Part shown: positions 3,220-11,955 of the stretch, one piece after another
How the letters are laid out: every line of letters starts with the position of its first letter
Position numbering within the stretch: position 1 is the stretch's first letter
Assembly (NCBI RefSeq): GCF_002162355.1
Contig: NZ_CP021434.1
Coordinates: forward strand, 218,501-282,500
Direction of reading: 5' to 3'
Origin: Tumebacillus avium
GTDB taxonomy: Bacteria > Bacillota > Bacilli > Tumebacillales > Tumebacillaceae
Length of the DNA stretch: 64,000 nt
Notes under the pieces: generated by a model
What the model was told of the DNA's origin: nothing
Seen by the model: only the letters and a program-made list of their open reading frames with translations
The model's database searches: none
Program-made: the position numbers and the translations under genes

Positions 3220-3246
3220 AAACACTGCCTGTCCACAGTACCAGAG

Positions 3247-3277
3247 AACTGCCGCTTATGGGAAGCGGCGGTTTTTT
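3247..3277 (+). terminator. Terminator after the small protein at 2995
   Basis: GCCGCTT-atggg-AAGCGGC with flanking AAC/GTT pairs and seven T residues. It separates the upstream gene from the mini-ORF array. Confidence 0.85.
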
Positions 3278-3380
3278 TATTTTAATCTGAATTTACTGAC
3301 AGGAGTTTCGCTCCTATGTGTAGAATTTACTTGTTAGAACCTGATTTATTAATTCACTAACCATCTGGAGGTGACTCGAC

Positions 3381-3428
3381 ATGGAGCGCAACATCACGTT
3401 CGGCGACATCAACATCTGGATCTGCTAG
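3381..3428 (+). CDS. Mini-ORF 1: 15-residue peptide ending Trp-Ile-Cys
   Basis: MERNITFGDINIWIC, then TAG. GGAGGTGAC sits 8 bases before the ATG. This is the longest of six tiny ORFs and ends in aromatic-aliphatic-Cys like all the others. A stem-loop with a T-rich tail follows at 3441, so it is probably transcribed apart from mini-ORFs 2-6. It has no leader, signal peptide or other gene features. Proposed role: substrate of the cysteine decarboxylase at 3982. Confidence 0.75.
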   Translation: MERNITFGDINIWIC

Positions 3429-3440
3429 TCTGCAGGTCAC

Positions 3441-3480
3441 AAAGTCCGGGTTGATTCCCAACTCGGACTTTAATTATTTA
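3441..3480 (+). terminator. Terminator or attenuator after mini-ORF 1
   Basis: AAAGTCCG and CGGACTTT enclose an inner GTTG/CAAC pairing (3441-3471), followed by an A/T-rich tail. It lies between mini-ORF 1 and the promoter of the following five. Confidence 0.7.
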
Positions 3481-3522
3481 TTTTTGCACTTTTTCAAATA
3501 TTTTTCATTCCTCGGTAGGATT

Positions 3523-3550
3523 TTGAGAATTTGCGTGGTATTTATATATA
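3523..3550 (+). promoter_or_regulatory. Promoter for mini-ORFs 2-6
   Basis: TTGAGA (3523-3528) and TATATA (3545-3550) are 16 bases apart, in an AT-rich stretch 35 bases upstream of mini-ORF 2. It is the best sigma-A-like match in the gap. Confidence 0.55.
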
Positions 3551-3584
3551 CAAGAACCTTAAATTAAATAAGGAGGTGACAAAC

Positions 3585-3611
3585 ATGCGTGATCCGGTAT
3601 ACCTCTGCTAG
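3585..3611 (+). CDS. Mini-ORF 2: 8-residue peptide ending Tyr-Leu-Cys
   Basis: MRDPVYLC, then TAG. Preceded by AAGGAGGTGAC, almost fully complementary to the 16S anti-Shine-Dalgarno, 4 bases before the ATG. It shares the Asp-Pro-hydrophobic-aromatic-Leu-Cys pattern with mini-ORFs 4 and 5. Confidence 0.75.
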   Translation: MRDPVYLC

Positions 3612-3650
3612 TCCGACTGCTTTTTACCTACAGGTTGGGAGGTGACAAGC

Positions 3651-3680
3651 ATGAGCTACGAACCGATCTTCCTCTGCTAG
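3651..3680 (+). CDS. Mini-ORF 3: 9-residue peptide ending Phe-Leu-Cys
   Basis: MSYEPIFLC, then TAG, with GGGAGGTGAC 3-4 bases before the ATG. The core EPIFLC is the same as DPIFLC in mini-ORF 4 apart from Glu for Asp. Confidence 0.75.
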   Translation: MSYEPIFLC

Positions 3681-3725
3681 TTTGAGATAAACTGTACGAT
3701 TACTAAGAAGTGGAGGTGACAAACC

Positions 3726-3758
3726 ATGGTAGTATCCGACCCGATCTTCCTCTGCTAG
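3726..3758 (+). CDS. Mini-ORF 4: 10-residue peptide ending Phe-Leu-Cys
   Basis: MVVSDPIFLC, then TAG, with GGAGGTGAC before the ATG. The unit, including the trailing TTTCCGT and CTGTCGAAATACGAA, is nearly repeated in mini-ORF 5, so the two are recent tandem duplicates differing at two residues. Confidence 0.78.
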   Translation: MVVSDPIFLC

Positions 3759-3797
3759 TTTCCGTGCTGTCGAAATACGAAACGGAGGTGACAAACC

Positions 3798-3830
3798 ATG
3801 GTAGTAACCGACCCGATCTTCATCTGCTAG
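3798..3830 (+). CDS. Mini-ORF 5: 10-residue peptide ending Phe-Ile-Cys
   Basis: MVVTDPIFIC, then TAG, with GGAGGTGAC before the ATG. It differs from mini-ORF 4 by Ser-to-Thr and Leu-to-Ile only. These conservative changes, with the frame, start, stop and ribosome site kept, argue that the peptide itself is selected. Confidence 0.78.
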   Translation: MVVTDPIFIC

Positions 3831-3870
3831 TTTCCGTTATCTGTCGAAATACGAAGCGGAGGTGACAAGC

Positions 3871-3897
3871 ATGCAAGATCAAGTATGGGTTTGCTAG
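3871..3897 (+). CDS. Mini-ORF 6: 8-residue peptide ending Trp-Val-Cys
   Basis: MQDQVWVC, then TAG, with GGAGGTGAC before the ATG. The upstream spacer CTGTCGAAATACGAAGCGG matches that of mini-ORF 5, but the peptide has diverged while keeping the aromatic-aliphatic-Cys end. Confidence 0.75.
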   Translation: MQDQVWVC

Positions 3898-3928
3898 TCA
3901 CTGACTAATCACATGCATTTTTCAAATG

Positions 3929-3960
3929 AAAAGCCTGGATGCTGCCATCCGGGCTTTTCT
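3929..3960 (+). terminator. Partial terminator between the peptide array and the decarboxylase gene
   Basis: AAAAGCC-t-GGATG-ctgc-CATCC-g-GGCTTTT, then TCTTCC. It lies just before the ribosome site of the next gene. Leaky termination here would make far more peptide mRNA than enzyme mRNA, as expected for substrate and catalyst. Confidence 0.7.
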
Positions 3961-3981
3961 TCCATACACGGAGGGGATTTT

Positions 3982-4551
3982 ATGGACATCAAAAACGTAC
4001 TCGTCGGCATCTCCGGTTCGATCGGCGCCGTTGAAATTCAAAACTATCTGGCCGCTTTGCGCAGCACCTGGGGCGCCAGCGTCCACGTCATCATGACGGA
4101 AAGCGCCGCTTCGATGCTGCAAAGCAAAACGGTCAACTATTTTATCGATGGAAATGTATTTTTGAAGTCGACCGACTCGACCGATCAATTTAAAATTCCG
4201 CACATTCATCTCACGACGTGGGCCGACCTGATGGTGATCATCCCGGCCAGCGCCAACATCATCGGCAAAGTTGCCAACGGCATTGCCGACGACCTGCTCT
4301 CCACCGCCGCGATGGCTGCGAAATGCCCGGTCGTCTTTTGCCCGAACATGAACGAACACATGCTAAACCGCCCTGCGATGCAGCGCAACATGCACCAGCT
4401 CAAAGAAGACGGTTACCTGATCATCGATCCGGGCGAAGAAGAAGCGATTCAGCTCTCGACCGGCCAGAAAGTGCAAGGCGCGATGCCTGGCTTCTCCCAG
4501 TTCATCCCGCGCCTGGAAGAAACCCTGAGGGGGCAGGGCCTGTATGTCTAA
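3982..4551 (+). CDS. EpiD-like flavoprotein, HFCD family (probable peptidyl-cysteine decarboxylase)
   Basis: HFCD flavoproteins oxidatively decarboxylate a cysteine: free 4'-phosphopantothenoyl-Cys (CoaC) or the C-terminal Cys of a peptide (EpiD, MrsD). This 189-residue protein has the FMN fold start KNVLVGISGSIGAVE, the active-site His in PHIHLTTWAD, the PASANIIGKVANGIADDLL motif and the substrate clamp PNMNEHM. Its length is that of EpiD; there is no CoaB half, so it is not a Dfp-type coenzyme A enzyme. It lies behind six ORFs whose peptides end in the tripeptide type EpiD accepts, so I infer it converts them to C-terminal aminoenethiols. ATG at 3982 follows GGAGGGGATTTT. The MFS gene overlaps its end by 8 bases. 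Confidence 0.9.
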   Translation: MDIKNVLVGISGSIGAVEIQNYLAALRSTWGASVHVIMTESAASMLQSKTVNYFIDGNVFLKSTDSTDQFKIPHIHLTTWADLMVIIPASANIIGKVANGIADDLLSTAAMAAKCPVVFCPNMNEHMLNRPAMQRNMHQLKEDGYLIIDPGEEEAIQLSTGQKVQGAMPGFSQFIPRLEETLRGQGLYV

Positions 4552-5776
4552 CCTGCAGGCACAACCCGCCTCACCTCTTCCCAAGCAGACCACCCGTTTT
4601 TATTATCTGCTGTTTGGCCTCTTTTTTTCACGACTTGGCAACAACATCTATCTGCTCGCTTTGCCTTGGCTGGCCTATGACCTGACCGGGTCTTCGGTGC
4701 AGATGGGGACGGTGTTTGCGTTTGAAACGTTGCCGTTCATCCTCTTGTTGCCGCTTGGCGGTGTGATCATCGACCGTTCTGATCGCCGTAAGATCATGAT
4801 GGTCTGCGATATAGCACGTATGGCATTGATCATTTCTCTTCCCCTGCTCTACTGGGCAGACCTGCTGACGATGGGTTATATCTTCCTGTTGTCGTTTGTG
4901 ATCTCTTCACTTTCCTTCTTTGTCGACATCTCGATGTCGGCGATCGTCCCGAACCTCGTCCACAAGGAGCAGCTGATCAAATCGAACGGCCAGCTCCAGC
5001 TCGTCGACAACTCGATCCGCCTGCTCGGACCGATTCTGGCCGGCGCGATGCTCGCCGCCATCGGCACGCCGTGGTCGATCTTCGTCTGCGCCTTCTCCTA
5101 CCTCGTGATGGCTTTCTGCGTGCTGCTGATCGGCAAGATTCCCCGTCCGGAAGCAAGCGGACAGGCGCCGAAAACGATCTGGCAGGATATGCGCGACGGG
5201 TTCGCGTACGGCTGGAACCGCATCGACCTGCGCGCGATCGGCGCGATCTCGATGCTCGCCAACTTTGGCCTTGGCCTCGTGATGTCGACATTGATCTTCT
5301 ACCTGCGCGACACGCTGGACACCAATGAGTGGCGCGTCGGATTCGTCTTCTCTTCGGTCGGCATCTTCGGCATCATCGGCGCGCTGGTCACGCCGCAGCT
5401 GACCAAGCGCTTCCGGCGCGGCCCGCTGCTCACTTTCATGATGATCTTTGGCGGCGGCATCGGCGGCGGACTGATCGCTTTGGTGCCGAACTGGATCGCG
5501 ACCGGGCTTGGCCTTGGCATTCTGCTTGGCAGCGTCGTGGTGATGAACGTGATTCTGAACGCCTATAAGCAAGGCAACATCGACAACCAGATGTTTGGCC
5601 GCGTCGAAGGGGCGATCACGTCGATCTCCAACTGCTGCATCCCGCTGGCCGGTGTGGTCGGCGGCATAACGATCGGTCTCGCCAGTGGATCGGTGATCAC
5701 CTATCTGCTCGCCACGGCGATGATCGTCGGCGCCGGACTGATTTCTTATTTCACTCCATTACGCAAAATCGCCTAG
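4544..5776 (+). CDS. MFS transporter (candidate peptide exporter)
   Basis: A 410-residue, 12-segment major facilitator transporter resembling the EntS/multidrug group (MFS_3-type): FFSRLGNNIYLLALPWLAYDLTGS in the first segment and the loop motif GGVIIDRSDRRKI between segments 2 and 3. The start codon overlaps the decarboxylase stop, so the genes are translationally coupled. From context it probably exports the modified peptide; substrate specificity cannot be read from sequence. Confidence 0.85.
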   Translation: MSNLQAQPASPLPKQTTRFYYLLFGLFFSRLGNNIYLLALPWLAYDLTGSSVQMGTVFAFETLPFILLLPLGGVIIDRSDRRKIMMVCDIARMALIISLPLLYWADLLTMGYIFLLSFVISSLSFFVDISMSAIVPNLVHKEQLIKSNGQLQLVDNSIRLLGPILAGAMLAAIGTPWSIFVCAFSYLVMAFCVLLIGKIPRPEASGQAPKTIWQDMRDGFAYGWNRIDLRAIGAISMLANFGLGLVMSTLIFYLRDTLDTNEWRVGFVFSSVGIFGIIGALVTPQLTKRFRRGPLLTFMMIFGGGIGGGLIALVPNWIATGLGLGILLGSVVVMNVILNAYKQGNIDNQMFGRVEGAITSISNCCIPLAGVVGGITIGLASGSVITYLLATAMIVGAGLISYFTPLRKIA

Positions 5777-5788
5777 GAGGTTCGCTGC

Positions 5789-7660
5789 ATGAACGTGATG
5801 CTGGATCAAATCATCTCGACCGAAGTTTCCGCTGCCGTCCACGCCCTGTTTGAAGGCAGATCGTCCGGCAAGACCATCTGGATTGAAAACGGACAGCCGT
5901 CCGATCTCGACGCGTCCTTTGCCGCTTTTGCCGGCATGGACGGCGTGTTTTTCCGCACCACCCTGCCGCTGCTTGACCGCAATGTGTTTGGCCCGATCCG
6001 CCAGCTCCTGCAAGAGACGCGGGAGATCTGGTCGCAATGGGCATGGGTCGAACAGGACTATTTCCGCGAAGTGAACGGGCTGTTCCCCGGCACCTACGAA
6101 GGCAAGCAAAGCGTGTTCCACGTCTCCTACTCCTGGTCGGAATTGCGCCTGAACCGCGACATTCAATGGGGCTTCCGACTGATGCATTTCGCCGCGCTCG
6201 TGCTCAAAGAGCTGGCGCAGCACAAGCCGGTGGTCATCGCCATACACGATGTGCAGCATACCGACCGCCTCTCCTTGCAGACCTTGTACCACCTGCTGCA
6301 CAACCTGAAGGCGGAAGGCATCGTGCTGATCCTGCAAAAAGGGCAGTACGACAACGGCGGCCGCCCGGTCACGTCTGACACCGGACAGTCGATCGAAAAA
6401 TTGCTTGGGGTGATCGCCGACGCGCTGAAGCCGTTGCGACTGATCGGTTCCAAAACCGCTCCTGTTGCCGCCGCTCCCCTGCCGCTGGAAGGCGAAGCGC
6501 CGTCCGATCACATCCGCGCGATGGTCGATTCGCTCTTTGCAGGCAACTGGGACGCAGAGCAGATCAAGAAGAAGCTGGACAGCGTGATGATGGTCTACAA
6601 CCTCGACAACACGCTGACCCTGGGCGATGCGGTGCTCGCCTGCATGCCGGAGCTCTCCCCGGAAGACGAGCGTGCGATTCGCTTCCACGTCTGGCGCAAA
6701 AAAGGCGTCGCTCTCGCCTTCATGGAAATGTACCCGGAAGCGATCCACGCTTTCACGCTGATGCACGACTACGCCGGCAACATGGCCGACCGCACGAAAG
6801 CGTATCACCTGCTCGCGCTCTGCTACGGCAAGCGCGTCGGGCGCTGGGACATCGCCAAACAGTTCCTGCACGAAGGCCTGCGCCTGACCGAAGGGCGCAG
6901 CGACTTCGACACGGTGTACGAACGCTGCTGGCTGTACAATTTCCTGGCCTATGTCACCTACCTGCACGACCGGGACATCCCGCTCGCGCTCGACTACGCG
7001 AACTCGGCCTATGAAGGCATCAAGCCGTTCTCGCACATGACCAAAGGCAACGTCATGGAAGAGCTGGAAGACCCGAAACTTCCGCTCCGCCTGTTCTACA
7101 ACCTGTCGATCAACATCTCCTACCTGCATTACTTTGCCAAAGACTACGATGCTGCCAAAGACCTCTGGCAAAACACGGTCGGCGAGTCGGTCAAAGAGAT
7201 TCCGGACATCTACAAAAAAGAGTTCTTCTACTTCGACGGCAACATCTTGAACCGTCGCGGTGAGTACGAAGACGCGCTTGTCGCCTACGAGCGCACGTAT
7301 GACATCTGCATGGCGCATGCCGACTCGTTTAACGCGGAGATCGCGCTTCGCCCGCTGGCGAACACGTATTTCCAGATGGAGCGCTTCGAAGACAGCTTGC
7401 AGTGGTATGAGCGCATCTTAAACCTGAAACGGGAAACGGGCGATCTGCGCCTCACGAAGACCTACCAGTCGATCATCCTCTGCCACCTCAAACTCGGCAA
7501 CATCGAGCAGGCGCAGAGCGTGTTCCAAGAAGCGCAAGAACTGCTCCCGCCGCGTTTCGCCGAGCTGTTCGTCAAAGGCACGCTGGCTGCGCACGCAGCT
7601 GAGTTCCTCGAAAACGGCCCGTACATCATCAACCAGTCGATCACGCAAATGATCATCTAA
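5789..7660 (+). CDS. Degenerate NTPase-like plus TPR-like repeat protein
   Basis: 623 residues, third gene of the decarboxylase operon, 12 bases after the MFS stop with TAGGAGG as ribosome site. Residues 1-230 resemble the NTPase region of MalT/AAA_16-type regulators: a SSGKT remnant near residue 27 without a full Walker A, and a Walker-B-like strand before HDVQHTDRLSLQTLYHLL (about 153-170). Residues 280-600 are helical repeats of TPR type (for example AKQFLHEGLRLTEGRSDFD, ALVAYERTYDICMAHADSFN, LQWYERILNLKRETGD). No HTH is evident. TPR proteins bind short peptides in RRNPP quorum systems, so a role as receptor, chaperone or immunity factor for the mini-peptides is possible but inferred. Confidence 0.7.
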   Translation: MNVMLDQIISTEVSAAVHALFEGRSSGKTIWIENGQPSDLDASFAAFAGMDGVFFRTTLPLLDRNVFGPIRQLLQETREIWSQWAWVEQDYFREVNGLFPGTYEGKQSVFHVSYSWSELRLNRDIQWGFRLMHFAALVLKELAQHKPVVIAIHDVQHTDRLSLQTLYHLLHNLKAEGIVLILQKGQYDNGGRPVTSDTGQSIEKLLGVIADALKPLRLIGSKTAPVAAAPLPLEGEAPSDHIRAMVDSLFAGNWDAEQIKKKLDSVMMVYNLDNTLTLGDAVLACMPELSPEDERAIRFHVWRKKGVALAFMEMYPEAIHAFTLMHDYAGNMADRTKAYHLLALCYGKRVGRWDIAKQFLHEGLRLTEGRSDFDTVYERCWLYNFLAYVTYLHDRDIPLALDYANSAYEGIKPFSHMTKGNVMEELEDPKLPLRLFYNLSINISYLHYFAKDYDAAKDLWQNTVGESVKEIPDIYKKEFFYFDGNILNRRGEYEDALVAYERTYDICMAHADSFNAEIALRPLANTYFQMERFEDSLQWYERILNLKRETGDLRLTKTYQSIILCHLKLGNIEQAQSVFQEAQELLPPRFAELFVKGTLAAHAAEFLENGPYIINQSITQMII

Positions 7661-10545: not shown

Positions 10546-11955
10546 TTATTGGTTGATCTCAATATCTTTTTGCAGCACGCGCTCCAAAAGGAACGGAGGG
10601 CGGCTGGAGTGGCCTTCGTTTTTGTTCAGCACGGCGCCAACGATCTTGGCGTTCGCCTGGCGCAGACCCGCGACGGCGACCGCACCTGCTTCGCGGGCGA
10701 CTTTGCCGCTTTTGATGACGAGCAGCACACCGTCAGCATGCTTGGCCAGCGCATTTGGCAGCAGCGAGGAGTTCATCGCGCCGCTGTCGATCAGGACGAT
10801 GTCATAGCGGTCGCGCAGTTCCGGCATCAGGTCCTCCAAACGACCTTCCGCCATCGAGCGCAGCGCCGGAAGCGAAGCCCGGCCCAGCGGCAGGACATCC
10901 AGTCCGGCGATCACCGACGGGCGAATCGCATCATCCAGTTCCGCTTCCCCAAGCAGCAATTCACACAGCCCCGCCTCCGCCCCGCCCGGCGCGAGACCGT
11001 GCAGGACAGGCTGCTCGGCATTGGCGTCGAGCAGCAGCACCCCATGGCCGTTTTGCGCCATCAGGATGCCGAGGTGGGTCAGGATCGTCGTTTTGCCTTC
11101 CCCATCTAGCGTCGACGTGACGACGATCGTGCGCACATCTTCCATCGTCAGCACGGGGAGCAGGTTGCGGTACAGATGCTGGTACCCTTCCAGCACGCGG
11201 CGGTTGCGCTTGGTCGGGTTCAGCTTCAGCTGCGGCAGTTCGCTCGCCGCCGCCACTTCGCTTTTCAGACCCAGCCAGCGGCGTCGCGGCGACCAGGTGC
11301 CAATCTCGCCAATCGTCGCCAAGCCCGTTTCGAACTTGATCTCTTCCCGGCTCTTTATCGTCGGGTCGAGATACTCCCGCACGCCAAACGCCCCGACTGC
11401 CGCCATCGTGGACAAAATCAGCGCAATCGCGATGTTCATCGTCACGTTTGGCGATGTTTTGGACGAAGTGTCCATCGTCGCCCGGTCGACGACGACCACA
11501 TTGTCGACCTGCATCAACTGCCCGATCTTCAGCGTAAACACGCGGGCCAGCTCATTGGTGATCACGATCGCCGCTTCCTGATCGGAATAGGTGACGGTGA
11601 TCGTAAAGATCGATGAGTCGGTGTTGTTGACGATCTTGATCTTCGTGCCCAGCTCATCGGGCTTCATCTGCAGATGCAGCTTGTCGATCACCTCTTGCAG
11701 CACGAGGTGGCTTTTGATGATCTCGTTGTAGGTCTTGATCACCTTTTGGTTGGTCATCACTTCATTGAGCAGGTACTCGGCCGAAATCGTCGGGTCGGTG
11801 TTGACCAGCAGCGCTGCTGTCGCCTTGTAGGTCGGCGTCACCACAAACATGCTCAAATAGGTGGAGGTGCCGACCGCAAATCCGACGATCAAAATCAACA
11901 GGCCAAGGCGTTTCTTGACCGCGTTGAGATACTTTTTCCACAGATAGCCTAACAT
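10546..11955 (-). CDS. Wzz-type chain-length determinant fused to BY-kinase-like domain
   Basis: 469 residues. The N-part (about 1-190) has the Wzz fold: first membrane segment LGLLILIVGFAVGTSTYLSMF, a periplasmic-type domain, and a second segment NIAIALILSTMAAVGAFGV. The C-part (about 250-450) is a CpsD/CapB-like ATPase with Walker A STLDGEGKTT, Walker A' VLLLDANAEQP and Walker B YDIVLIDSG. In Firmicutes these are usually two proteins; here they are one, as in proteobacterial Wzc. No tyrosine cluster is visible at the C-terminus (EINQ end), so classic autophosphorylation may be missing. Confidence 0.85.
   Translation of the reverse strand: MLGYLWKKYLNAVKKRLGLLILIVGFAVGTSTYLSMFVVTPTYKATAALLVNTDPTISAEYLLNEVMTNQKVIKTYNEIIKSHLVLQEVIDKLHLQMKPDELGTKIKIVNNTDSSIFTITVTYSDQEAAIVITNELARVFTLKIGQLMQVDNVVVVDRATMDTSSKTSPNVTMNIAIALILSTMAAVGAFGVREYLDPTIKSREEIKFETGLATIGEIGTWSPRRRWLGLKSEVAAASELPQLKLNPTKRNRRVLEGYQHLYRNLLPVLTMEDVRTIVVTSTLDGEGKTTILTHLGILMAQNGHGVLLLDANAEQPVLHGLAPGGAEAGLCELLLGEAELDDAIRPSVIAGLDVLPLGRASLPALRSMAEGRLEDLMPELRDRYDIVLIDSGAMNSSLLPNALAKHADGVLLVIKSGKVAREAGAVAVAGLRQANAKIVGAVLNKNEGHSSRPPFLLERVLQKDIEINQ

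Follow-up and report, generated by a model that had tools for sequence, protein, structure and literature searches.

A putative leaderless peptide pathway in Tumebacillus avium: Cys-ended mini-genes arrayed ahead of a MrsD/EpiD-like flavoprotein gene

In lanthipeptide biosynthesis the flavoproteins EpiD and MrsD (LanD) act on peptides that end in Cys, and in other pathways enzymes act on tiny peptides encoded by genes of a few codons. The precursor of microcin C, MccA, has 7 residues and is converted by adenylyltransferase chemistry. For the biarylitides, which depend on P450 chemistry, an excerpt of PMC12951456 gives a five-residue precursor, BytA, whose first two residues are termed a leader; part of PMC12328550 treats LanD from class I lanthipeptide pathways as independent of the leader. 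Here we describe a locus of Tumebacillus avium that compares with all of these. In the window (the whole stretch of DNA that was analysed, 64 kb of NZ_CP021434.1, the one contig of the 5.25-Mb genome) six very short open reading frames (ORFs) ending in Cys precede an operon for a homo-oligomeric flavin-containing Cys decarboxylase (HFCD) family protein, a major facilitator superfamily (MFS) protein and a tetratricopeptide repeat (TPR) protein. We consider it probable that these mini-ORFs encode leaderless precursors of a ribosomally synthesized and post-translationally modified peptide (RiPP), whose C-terminal Cys would be oxidatively decarboxylated by the HFCD protein and whose product would leave the cell through the MFS protein. 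With EpiD and MrsD the locus shares the fold, the PASAN and PN(M)N motifs, the position of the active-site His and a candidate substrate ending in Cys; it differs in that its operon has no LanB, LanC, LanM or LanKC-type gene (Pfam and NCBIfam recognize only HFCD, MFS and TPR), and in that the substrates would be arrayed, leaderless and only 8-15 residues long. As in biarylitides and microcin C, a gene of a few codons would provide a tiny peptide for an enzyme to act upon; unlike the P450 pathway of the biarylitides, the predicted chemistry is a flavin-dependent cysteine decarboxylation, and up to six tiny ORFs stand in a row.

The six mini-ORFs lie on the forward strand within positions 3381-3897 and code for peptides of 8-15 residues, all ending in Cys; each is preceded by GGAGGTGA, and in all six the Cys codon and the stop read TGC-TAG. 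A preliminary description of the window had listed the six peptides, a near-perfect Shine-Dalgarno (SD) sequence and a TGC-TAG stop of its own for each, and the downstream HFCD gene with EpiD motifs. When re-read from the DNA the peptides were identical, the two signals were present at every mini-ORF, and the motifs were located at residues 88-92 (PASAN) and 121-127 (PNMNEHM) of the HFCD protein. The sequence GGAGGTGA occurs 8 times in the window, six of them at the array, as compared with a mean of 1.56 and a maximum of 5 in shuffled sequences. Counting both strands, the window has nine ORFs between 5 and 20 codons long that follow a strong SD (GGAGGT or AGGAGG), and the six of these that end in Cys are the six of the array. 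A genome-wide search for the pattern SD-ATG-(12..42 nt)-TGCTAR gave 6 matches, all in the array, against 0 for the reversed control; in 13 other genomes of the order there are 12, of which 7 fall in two homologous arrays and 5 elsewhere. Dinucleotide shuffles of positions 3230-3981 (n = 2000) contained no match in 1997 cases, one match in two and two matches in one, against the 6 observed. Cys endings are uncommon, because among the 427 SD-preceded ORFs of 6-90 codons in the window there are only 15, including those of the array. The array of six is genuine and greatly exceeds what chance would give. Viral contigs scanned with the same pattern gave a single match in each of the best 80 of 101 stretches, and therefore no array in those; an Rfam scan gave two matches, both far below the gathering score.

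We searched 14 genomes of the order, that of the window included, three of which belong to Tumebacillus (G000, the window's own, G012 and G013). The array next to the HFCD gene, whose conservation the preliminary description had proposed as a test, is kept in all three, that of G013 having five ORFs and that of G012 four. In an alignment of the three arrays the ORFs stand out from diverged, gap-rich spacers. All 15 peptides (14 distinct) end in [VI]-[FYW]-[VIL]-C, whereas the dipeptide [FYW][VIL] represents 2.4% of the 1474 dipeptides in four neighbouring proteins. A tripeptide rule for EpiD, (V/I/L/M/F/Y/W)-(A/S/V/T/C/I/L)-C, reportedly formulated by Kupke in 1995, is also obeyed by 15 of 15 peptides, versus 18% of the neighbouring dipeptides. 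The stop codon is TAG in 12 cases and TAA in 3; one ORF of G012 starts with GTG, and ORF2 of G013 has a weaker SD. Between the window and G013 there are 8 synonymous and 6 non-synonymous codon changes over five ORF pairs; between the window and G012 the corresponding ratios are 1:8 for ORF1, 1:6 for ORF2 and 2:2 for ORF6, from which it can be seen that the motif is held, and not every residue.

The HFCD protein matches PF02441 with 109.5 bits (gathering score 22.7). In a profile search MrsD ranked first (5.3e-40), and MrsD, SpaF, TvaF and EpiD all preceded CoaBC (5.9e-23); Foldseek also ranked MrsD first. The EpiD-like assignment of the preliminary description is borne out by both rankings, and on this basis the protein resembles the MrsD/EpiD type and is predicted to be a peptidyl-cysteine decarboxylase. 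A second structure aligner placed MrsD level with CoaBC, to which the protein is 28% identical. Residues H74, P88, A89, A91, N92, P121, N122 and N124 are invariant in all 11 rows of the HFCD alignment, while M123 is replaced by Thr in three (P0008-P0010); from the alignment and the title of structure 1g5q, H74 is at the position of EpiD His67. In CoaC an active-site Cys reduces the enethiol. CoaC and CoaBC belong to the same family and have the same fold, but the window protein is not fused to a CoaB part and lacks this Cys (LSTG, as opposed to LACG in the genome's own CoaBC, encoded elsewhere), as do all 11 rows of the alignment; the title of 1mvn describes a C175S mutant with aminoethenethiol. 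The scores against the curated NCBIfam models TIGR00521 (149.7 of 219.7 bits) and TIGR02113 (107.6 of 261.4) are below cut-off. In a tree from which G008_MFS_rSAM and two CoaC-like rows were left out, CoaBC splits off from the rest (12 of 12 rows) with support 100/99; the place of the group with mini-ORFs relative to RiPP-like rows has poor support (79/58), and long branches meet. By the title of its structure, a solved EpiD complex contains the leader-free peptide DSYTC, which has an aromatic residue two positions before the Cys, as do the mini-ORF peptides.

The homologue search returned HFCD proteins from Tumebacillus lipolyticus, Cytobacillus (NCCP-133) and other sources, some of them at 62-80%. 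A scan of contigs with the single HFCD sequence retrieved no relative; a scan with the alignment retrieved at least 80 loci, mostly CoaBC, and brought in those of Bacillus badius (HFCD 58%) and Fictibacillus phosphorivorans (56%). Of 397 genomes from the order of these Bacillaceae-type loci, three have a match to the TPR protein, namely B. badius, Fictibacillus and G465, and a repeat search around G465 gave the same three; in 398 genomes of the class, TPR matches at 1e-20 are limited to four, the three Tumebacillus and a partial one to the repeat part. Full-length relatives of the TPR protein were seen only in HFCD-MFS-TPR operons. All three Bacillaceae-type loci add a gene for a spermidine-synthase-like methyltransferase (mad2 in PADLOC, 4.1e-14) and adjoin transposase/resolvase genes (named by eye in G465), and upstream of each operon there is a single short ORF with GGAGGTGA. 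It reads MRFEERNVYVCAPGTKRK in B. badius and G465, and MRFEERNVYVCAPGTKRNVYVCAPGTKRK in Fictibacillus, where the NVYVC-APGTKR unit is doubled in tandem and in frame. Five bases distinguish one Fictibacillus copy from the other and four the B. badius ORF from that of G465, all of them synonymous (chance about 0.0015, if changes are independent, and 0.0034); thus selection sees the whole peptide there, the APGTKR tail included. In all six HFCD-MFS-TPR operons with DNA a short upstream ORF carries [VI][FYW][VIL]C.

Some further features of these loci were recorded. The HFCD-MFS-TPR-methyltransferase cassette (L040 2688-5524, L041 1987-5495, L128 396-3935) has different neighbours, a Mu-type transposase with an AAA protein and a resolvase in one setting and a Tn3-type transposase in another, and therefore seems to travel as a transposon passenger. 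At all three loci a hairpin, GTATTTCC..GGGAGGTGAATAC (L040, about 5846-5875), can form that takes in the SD of the short ORF, a possible translational switch. The homologue P0010 is predicted to be extended at its N-terminus, its frame running through the region 5' of the usual start; the start is probably mis-called, and the extension hints at another precursor variant upstream.

In a sister genus, five stand-alone HFCD loci occur in two genomes (G008 and G009), while the other two genomes have CoaBC-sized HFCD matches only. Their HFCD proteins are 41-45% identical to that of the window at four loci and 30% at the fifth. An MFS gene is present at three loci (in L134 and L133 its product is 22-26% identical to the window MFS protein, over part of the length), and a Cys-ended ORF lies beside the HFCD gene or at the operon head in all five; one has six tandem cores. 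These clusters differ from the window operon in their longer, leader-like precursors (at least 29 residues), proteases and radical S-adenosylmethionine (SAM) enzymes, none of which the window operon has. They are of three types: MFS-TldD-TldE-HFCD-radical SAM (the TldE of L134 being assigned by gene order), MFS-HFCD-radical SAM, and subtilase/DUF1611-HFCD-ABC transporter. The radical SAM enzymes come near RiPP maturase models, below cut-off. The Cys-ended ORF of L134 is MNKNLEQEILELEETLADEVFGEQKTNNNVIC. At L131 an ORF on the reverse strand (11371-11721) has a leader-like start resembling that of L134, followed by six tandem TVPTQNTNNNVC cores, and heads an MFS-TldD-TldE-HFCD-radical SAM operon; this looks like a multi-core RiPP cluster, with no match to any named one. 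At L133 a 37-residue ORF at 7501, MEKMIDLAPTLDVLDGNLDDLLSLSDVDNENGNCHIC, lies between the HFCD and radical SAM genes and ends in GNCHIC, and at L132 (4862) and L237 (5011) there are near-identical ORFs of 29 residues (MKKSLKKPQAVVVANVQAYDNENCNNCWC and a near copy) ending in CNNCWC, of which that of L132 precedes genes for a subtilase/DUF1611 protein, HFCD and an ABC transporter.

Taken as a comparison of sequences, these data support the leaderless-RiPP reading well: a conserved precursor-like ORF lies beside the gene for a predicted peptide-modifying enzyme, the combination by which a RiPP locus is recognized. The mini-ORFs would be translated, and the HFCD protein would remove H2 and CO2 (−46 Da) from the C-terminal Cys to give a C-terminal enethiol. 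For recognition the short motif at the C-terminus would stand in for a leader, and the TPR superhelix may hold the peptide; the MFS protein would then export the product. ORF2-6 have no N-terminal stretch in common, and genes of 8-15 codons are too short to include a leader of the usual kind, although the first residues could serve as one by analogy with biarylitides. Because the operon has no dehydratase or cyclase gene, we consider either that the enethiol, as a thioaldehyde, closes on the free N-terminus or that the product stays linear; closure of this kind is said to occur in MicD-oxidised peptides. Two observations weigh against this proposal, both from the transposon-borne forms: there the Cys is not C-terminal, being followed by APGTKR, and no protease gene was seen at those loci. 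The tail would have to be removed first, and capping of the product may fall to the extra methyltransferase. Considered together with the sister-genus clusters, this suggests that one kind of enzyme can be supplied in alternative ways, by tandem-core precursors with a leader or by single-core mini-genes. The preliminary description had regarded core-sized RiPP precursors as undescribed, which does not hold in view of the five-residue biarylitide precursors (PMC12951456, in excerpt). Since ultra-short precursors are known from biarylitides and microcin C, the array is not a new kind of RiPP precursor; in the titles and abstract openings of the open literature searched, to which most subscription papers do not belong, no such system is described. 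A bolder version holds that this is a RiPP class with a dissolved precursor, in which each core has its own leaderless gene and ribosome-binding site, the TPR protein replaces the leader, the stop replaces the protease, as it directly follows the Cys, and closure of the C-terminal enethiol on the N-terminus yields a small family of head-to-tail cyclic peptides, produced in parallel. We regard this extension as doubtful.

The array probably does not form a single simple unit, because ORF1 has a terminator-like hairpin of its own, a new putative promoter precedes ORF2 and a further hairpin lies between ORF6 and the HFCD gene (Table 1). An inverted repeat occupies the position of the ORF1 hairpin in both relatives, with different bases (alignment, by eye). 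An element of the form AGGA..-N-GTAGTAT precedes each of the two units in all three Tumebacillus genomes; the promoter-like expression matches 8 times on the two strands of the 64 kb, the two of the array included. Judged by the sigma-H consensus, these elements look sigma-H-like. A 14-codon ORF with AGGAG, MCRIYLLEPDLLIH, at window positions 3316-3360 lies 5' of ORF1 and overlaps the putative promoter; the relatives do not retain it in this form.

Table 1. Coordinates in the window of the mini-ORF array, its signals and the adjoining operon.
Feature	Position	Strand	Remarks
Putative promoter element AGGAGTTT-N-GTAGAAT, ahead of ORF1	3301..3326	+	
Shine-Dalgarno GGAGGTGA of ORF1	3367..3374	+	
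Mini-ORF1 MERNITFGDINIWIC	3381..3428	+	kept in relatives as MERNIAVGDINIWIC and MERNVKVGDINIYLC
Terminator-like hairpin 3' of ORF1	3441..3471	+	terminator scan
Putative promoter element of the second unit, 5' of ORF2-6	3517..3541	+	
Shine-Dalgarno of ORF2	3572..3579	+	
Mini-ORF2 MRDPVYLC	3585..3611	+	
Shine-Dalgarno of ORF3	3638..3645	+	
Mini-ORF3 MSYEPIFLC	3651..3680	+	
Shine-Dalgarno of ORF4	3712..3719	+	
Mini-ORF4 MVVSDPIFLC	3726..3758	+	
Shine-Dalgarno of ORF5	3784..3791	+	
Mini-ORF5 MVVTDPIFIC	3798..3830	+	
Shine-Dalgarno of ORF6	3858..3865	+	
Mini-ORF6 MQDQVWVC	3871..3897	+	
Conserved hairpin between array and HFCD gene	3929..3958	+	weak U run; absent from terminator-scan list
HFCD flavoprotein, predicted peptidyl-cysteine decarboxylase	3982..4551	+	PF02441; 189 aa
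MFS protein, predicted exporter	4544..5776	+	PF07690; TIGR00900 subfamily below cut-off
TPR superhelix protein	5789..7660	+	N-terminal domain of uncertain type

The main rival to the RiPP reading is that the mini-ORFs are ribosome-arrest or attenuation leaders, which switch on the MFS operon when translation stalls upon a drug or amino-acid shortage. Short ORFs with a strong SD, together with hairpins, do precede the HFCD and MFS genes, the MFS protein weakly matches the Mef macrolide exporters (far below cut-off), and the I-F-x-x endings IFLC and IFIC recall IFVI, the arrest motif of ErmCL. Leaders of the ErmCL type differ from the window in that here there are six ORFs in tandem, the first with its own terminator-like hairpin and followed by a new putative promoter, and in that no antiterminator pairing was found: at all six loci the pairing of the upstream RNA with the 5' arm of the hairpin was no better than in 200 shuffles (fractions as good 0.17-0.96, translational control not being modelled). 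The relatives also argue against arrest, since the tandem core duplication of Fictibacillus is in frame with synonymous changes only, and longer Cys-ended ORFs stand at related HFCD loci. We consider this alternative unlikely. TAG readthrough, cysteine attenuation and a T-box were also considered, with nothing observed in their support.

We give a similarly low probability to the idea that the peptides are exported pheromones, with the TPR protein as receptor and the HFCD protein capping their end; this is compatible with the RiPP reading, not opposed to it. The model of the TPR protein (mean pLDDT 77.7) is a TPR superhelix resembling peptide-binding ones, its sequence shows a weak likeness to NprR and to a Rap-type phosphatase (E 0.005-0.008), and in each of the three genomes the elements presumed to be sigma-H-like precede both units. 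Against it, generic TPR proteins rank above Rap and NprR (LGN and kinesin light chain, the most similar, and designed TPRs), and no DNA-binding domain or importer was recognized in the operon, for which PADLOC gave a generic TPR match. A third possibility, a CoaC-like decarboxylase kept as a spare copy next to an unrelated array, as the best NCBIfam matches (CoaBC and CoaC), the 28% identity and the tied fold score might suggest, is very improbable in view of the CoaBC present elsewhere in the genome, the missing active-site Cys, the split in the tree and the motif-bearing short ORF that accompanies the HFCD gene in every one of the six operons.

If the leaderless-RiPP reading is true, a simple rule, an HFCD gene with an MFS gene and short SD-preceded ORFs ending in Cys, would allow such RiPPs to be mined; pathways of this type would go unseen in annotated genomes, because 8-15 codons are below the usual size for gene finders. 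The window, transposon and sister-genus forms make up a natural series from leader-like tandem-core precursors to single-core genes. Peptides with a C-terminal enethiol or thioaldehyde but no lanthionine partner would also be unusual, reactive products.

As to the surroundings of the operon, the gene upstream common to all three Tumebacillus genomes is fabI, and an upstream ORF of 74 residues is found in one of the two relatives (upstream genes were named by eye). The next gene downstream codes for a dicarboxylate symporter, no counterpart of which turned up in the 13 kb examined from each of G012 and G013.

HFCD genes in other settings were also surveyed. An HFCD match at 1e-38, mainly CoaBC, was obtained in 315 of 398 genomes of the class. 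Eight of the resulting loci outside the family, scanned over short flanks, gave only chance-looking ORFs. Four were taken with wider flanks. Three of these (L268-L270) look LanB-LanT-LanC-LanD-like by size and order, with no intergenic Cys-ended short ORF; the available stretch covers little beyond the start of the first large ORF, and an upstream precursor would fall outside. L271 has one doubtful ORF. A plasmid search with the Cytobacillus HFCD gave no match, while the B. cereus homologue gave 19 records (12 Priestia flavoprotein, 4 coaBC, 3 without a named feature), one Priestia record holding a gallidermin/nisin-type cluster with LanB and LanC, as annotated. Finally, the 1500 bases upstream of 80 loci from the alignment scan were searched for ORFs of 5-35 codons that start with ATG and follow an SD. 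This returned the two Bacillaceae ORFs, ORFs with Cys in the last three residues at L069 and L084, and Cys-ended ORFs at L068 and L046; the last, 239 bases 5' of position 6001, has 28 residues ending in NFATGC and belongs to a stand-alone HFCD gene of the Ktedonobacteraceae (235-aa frame).

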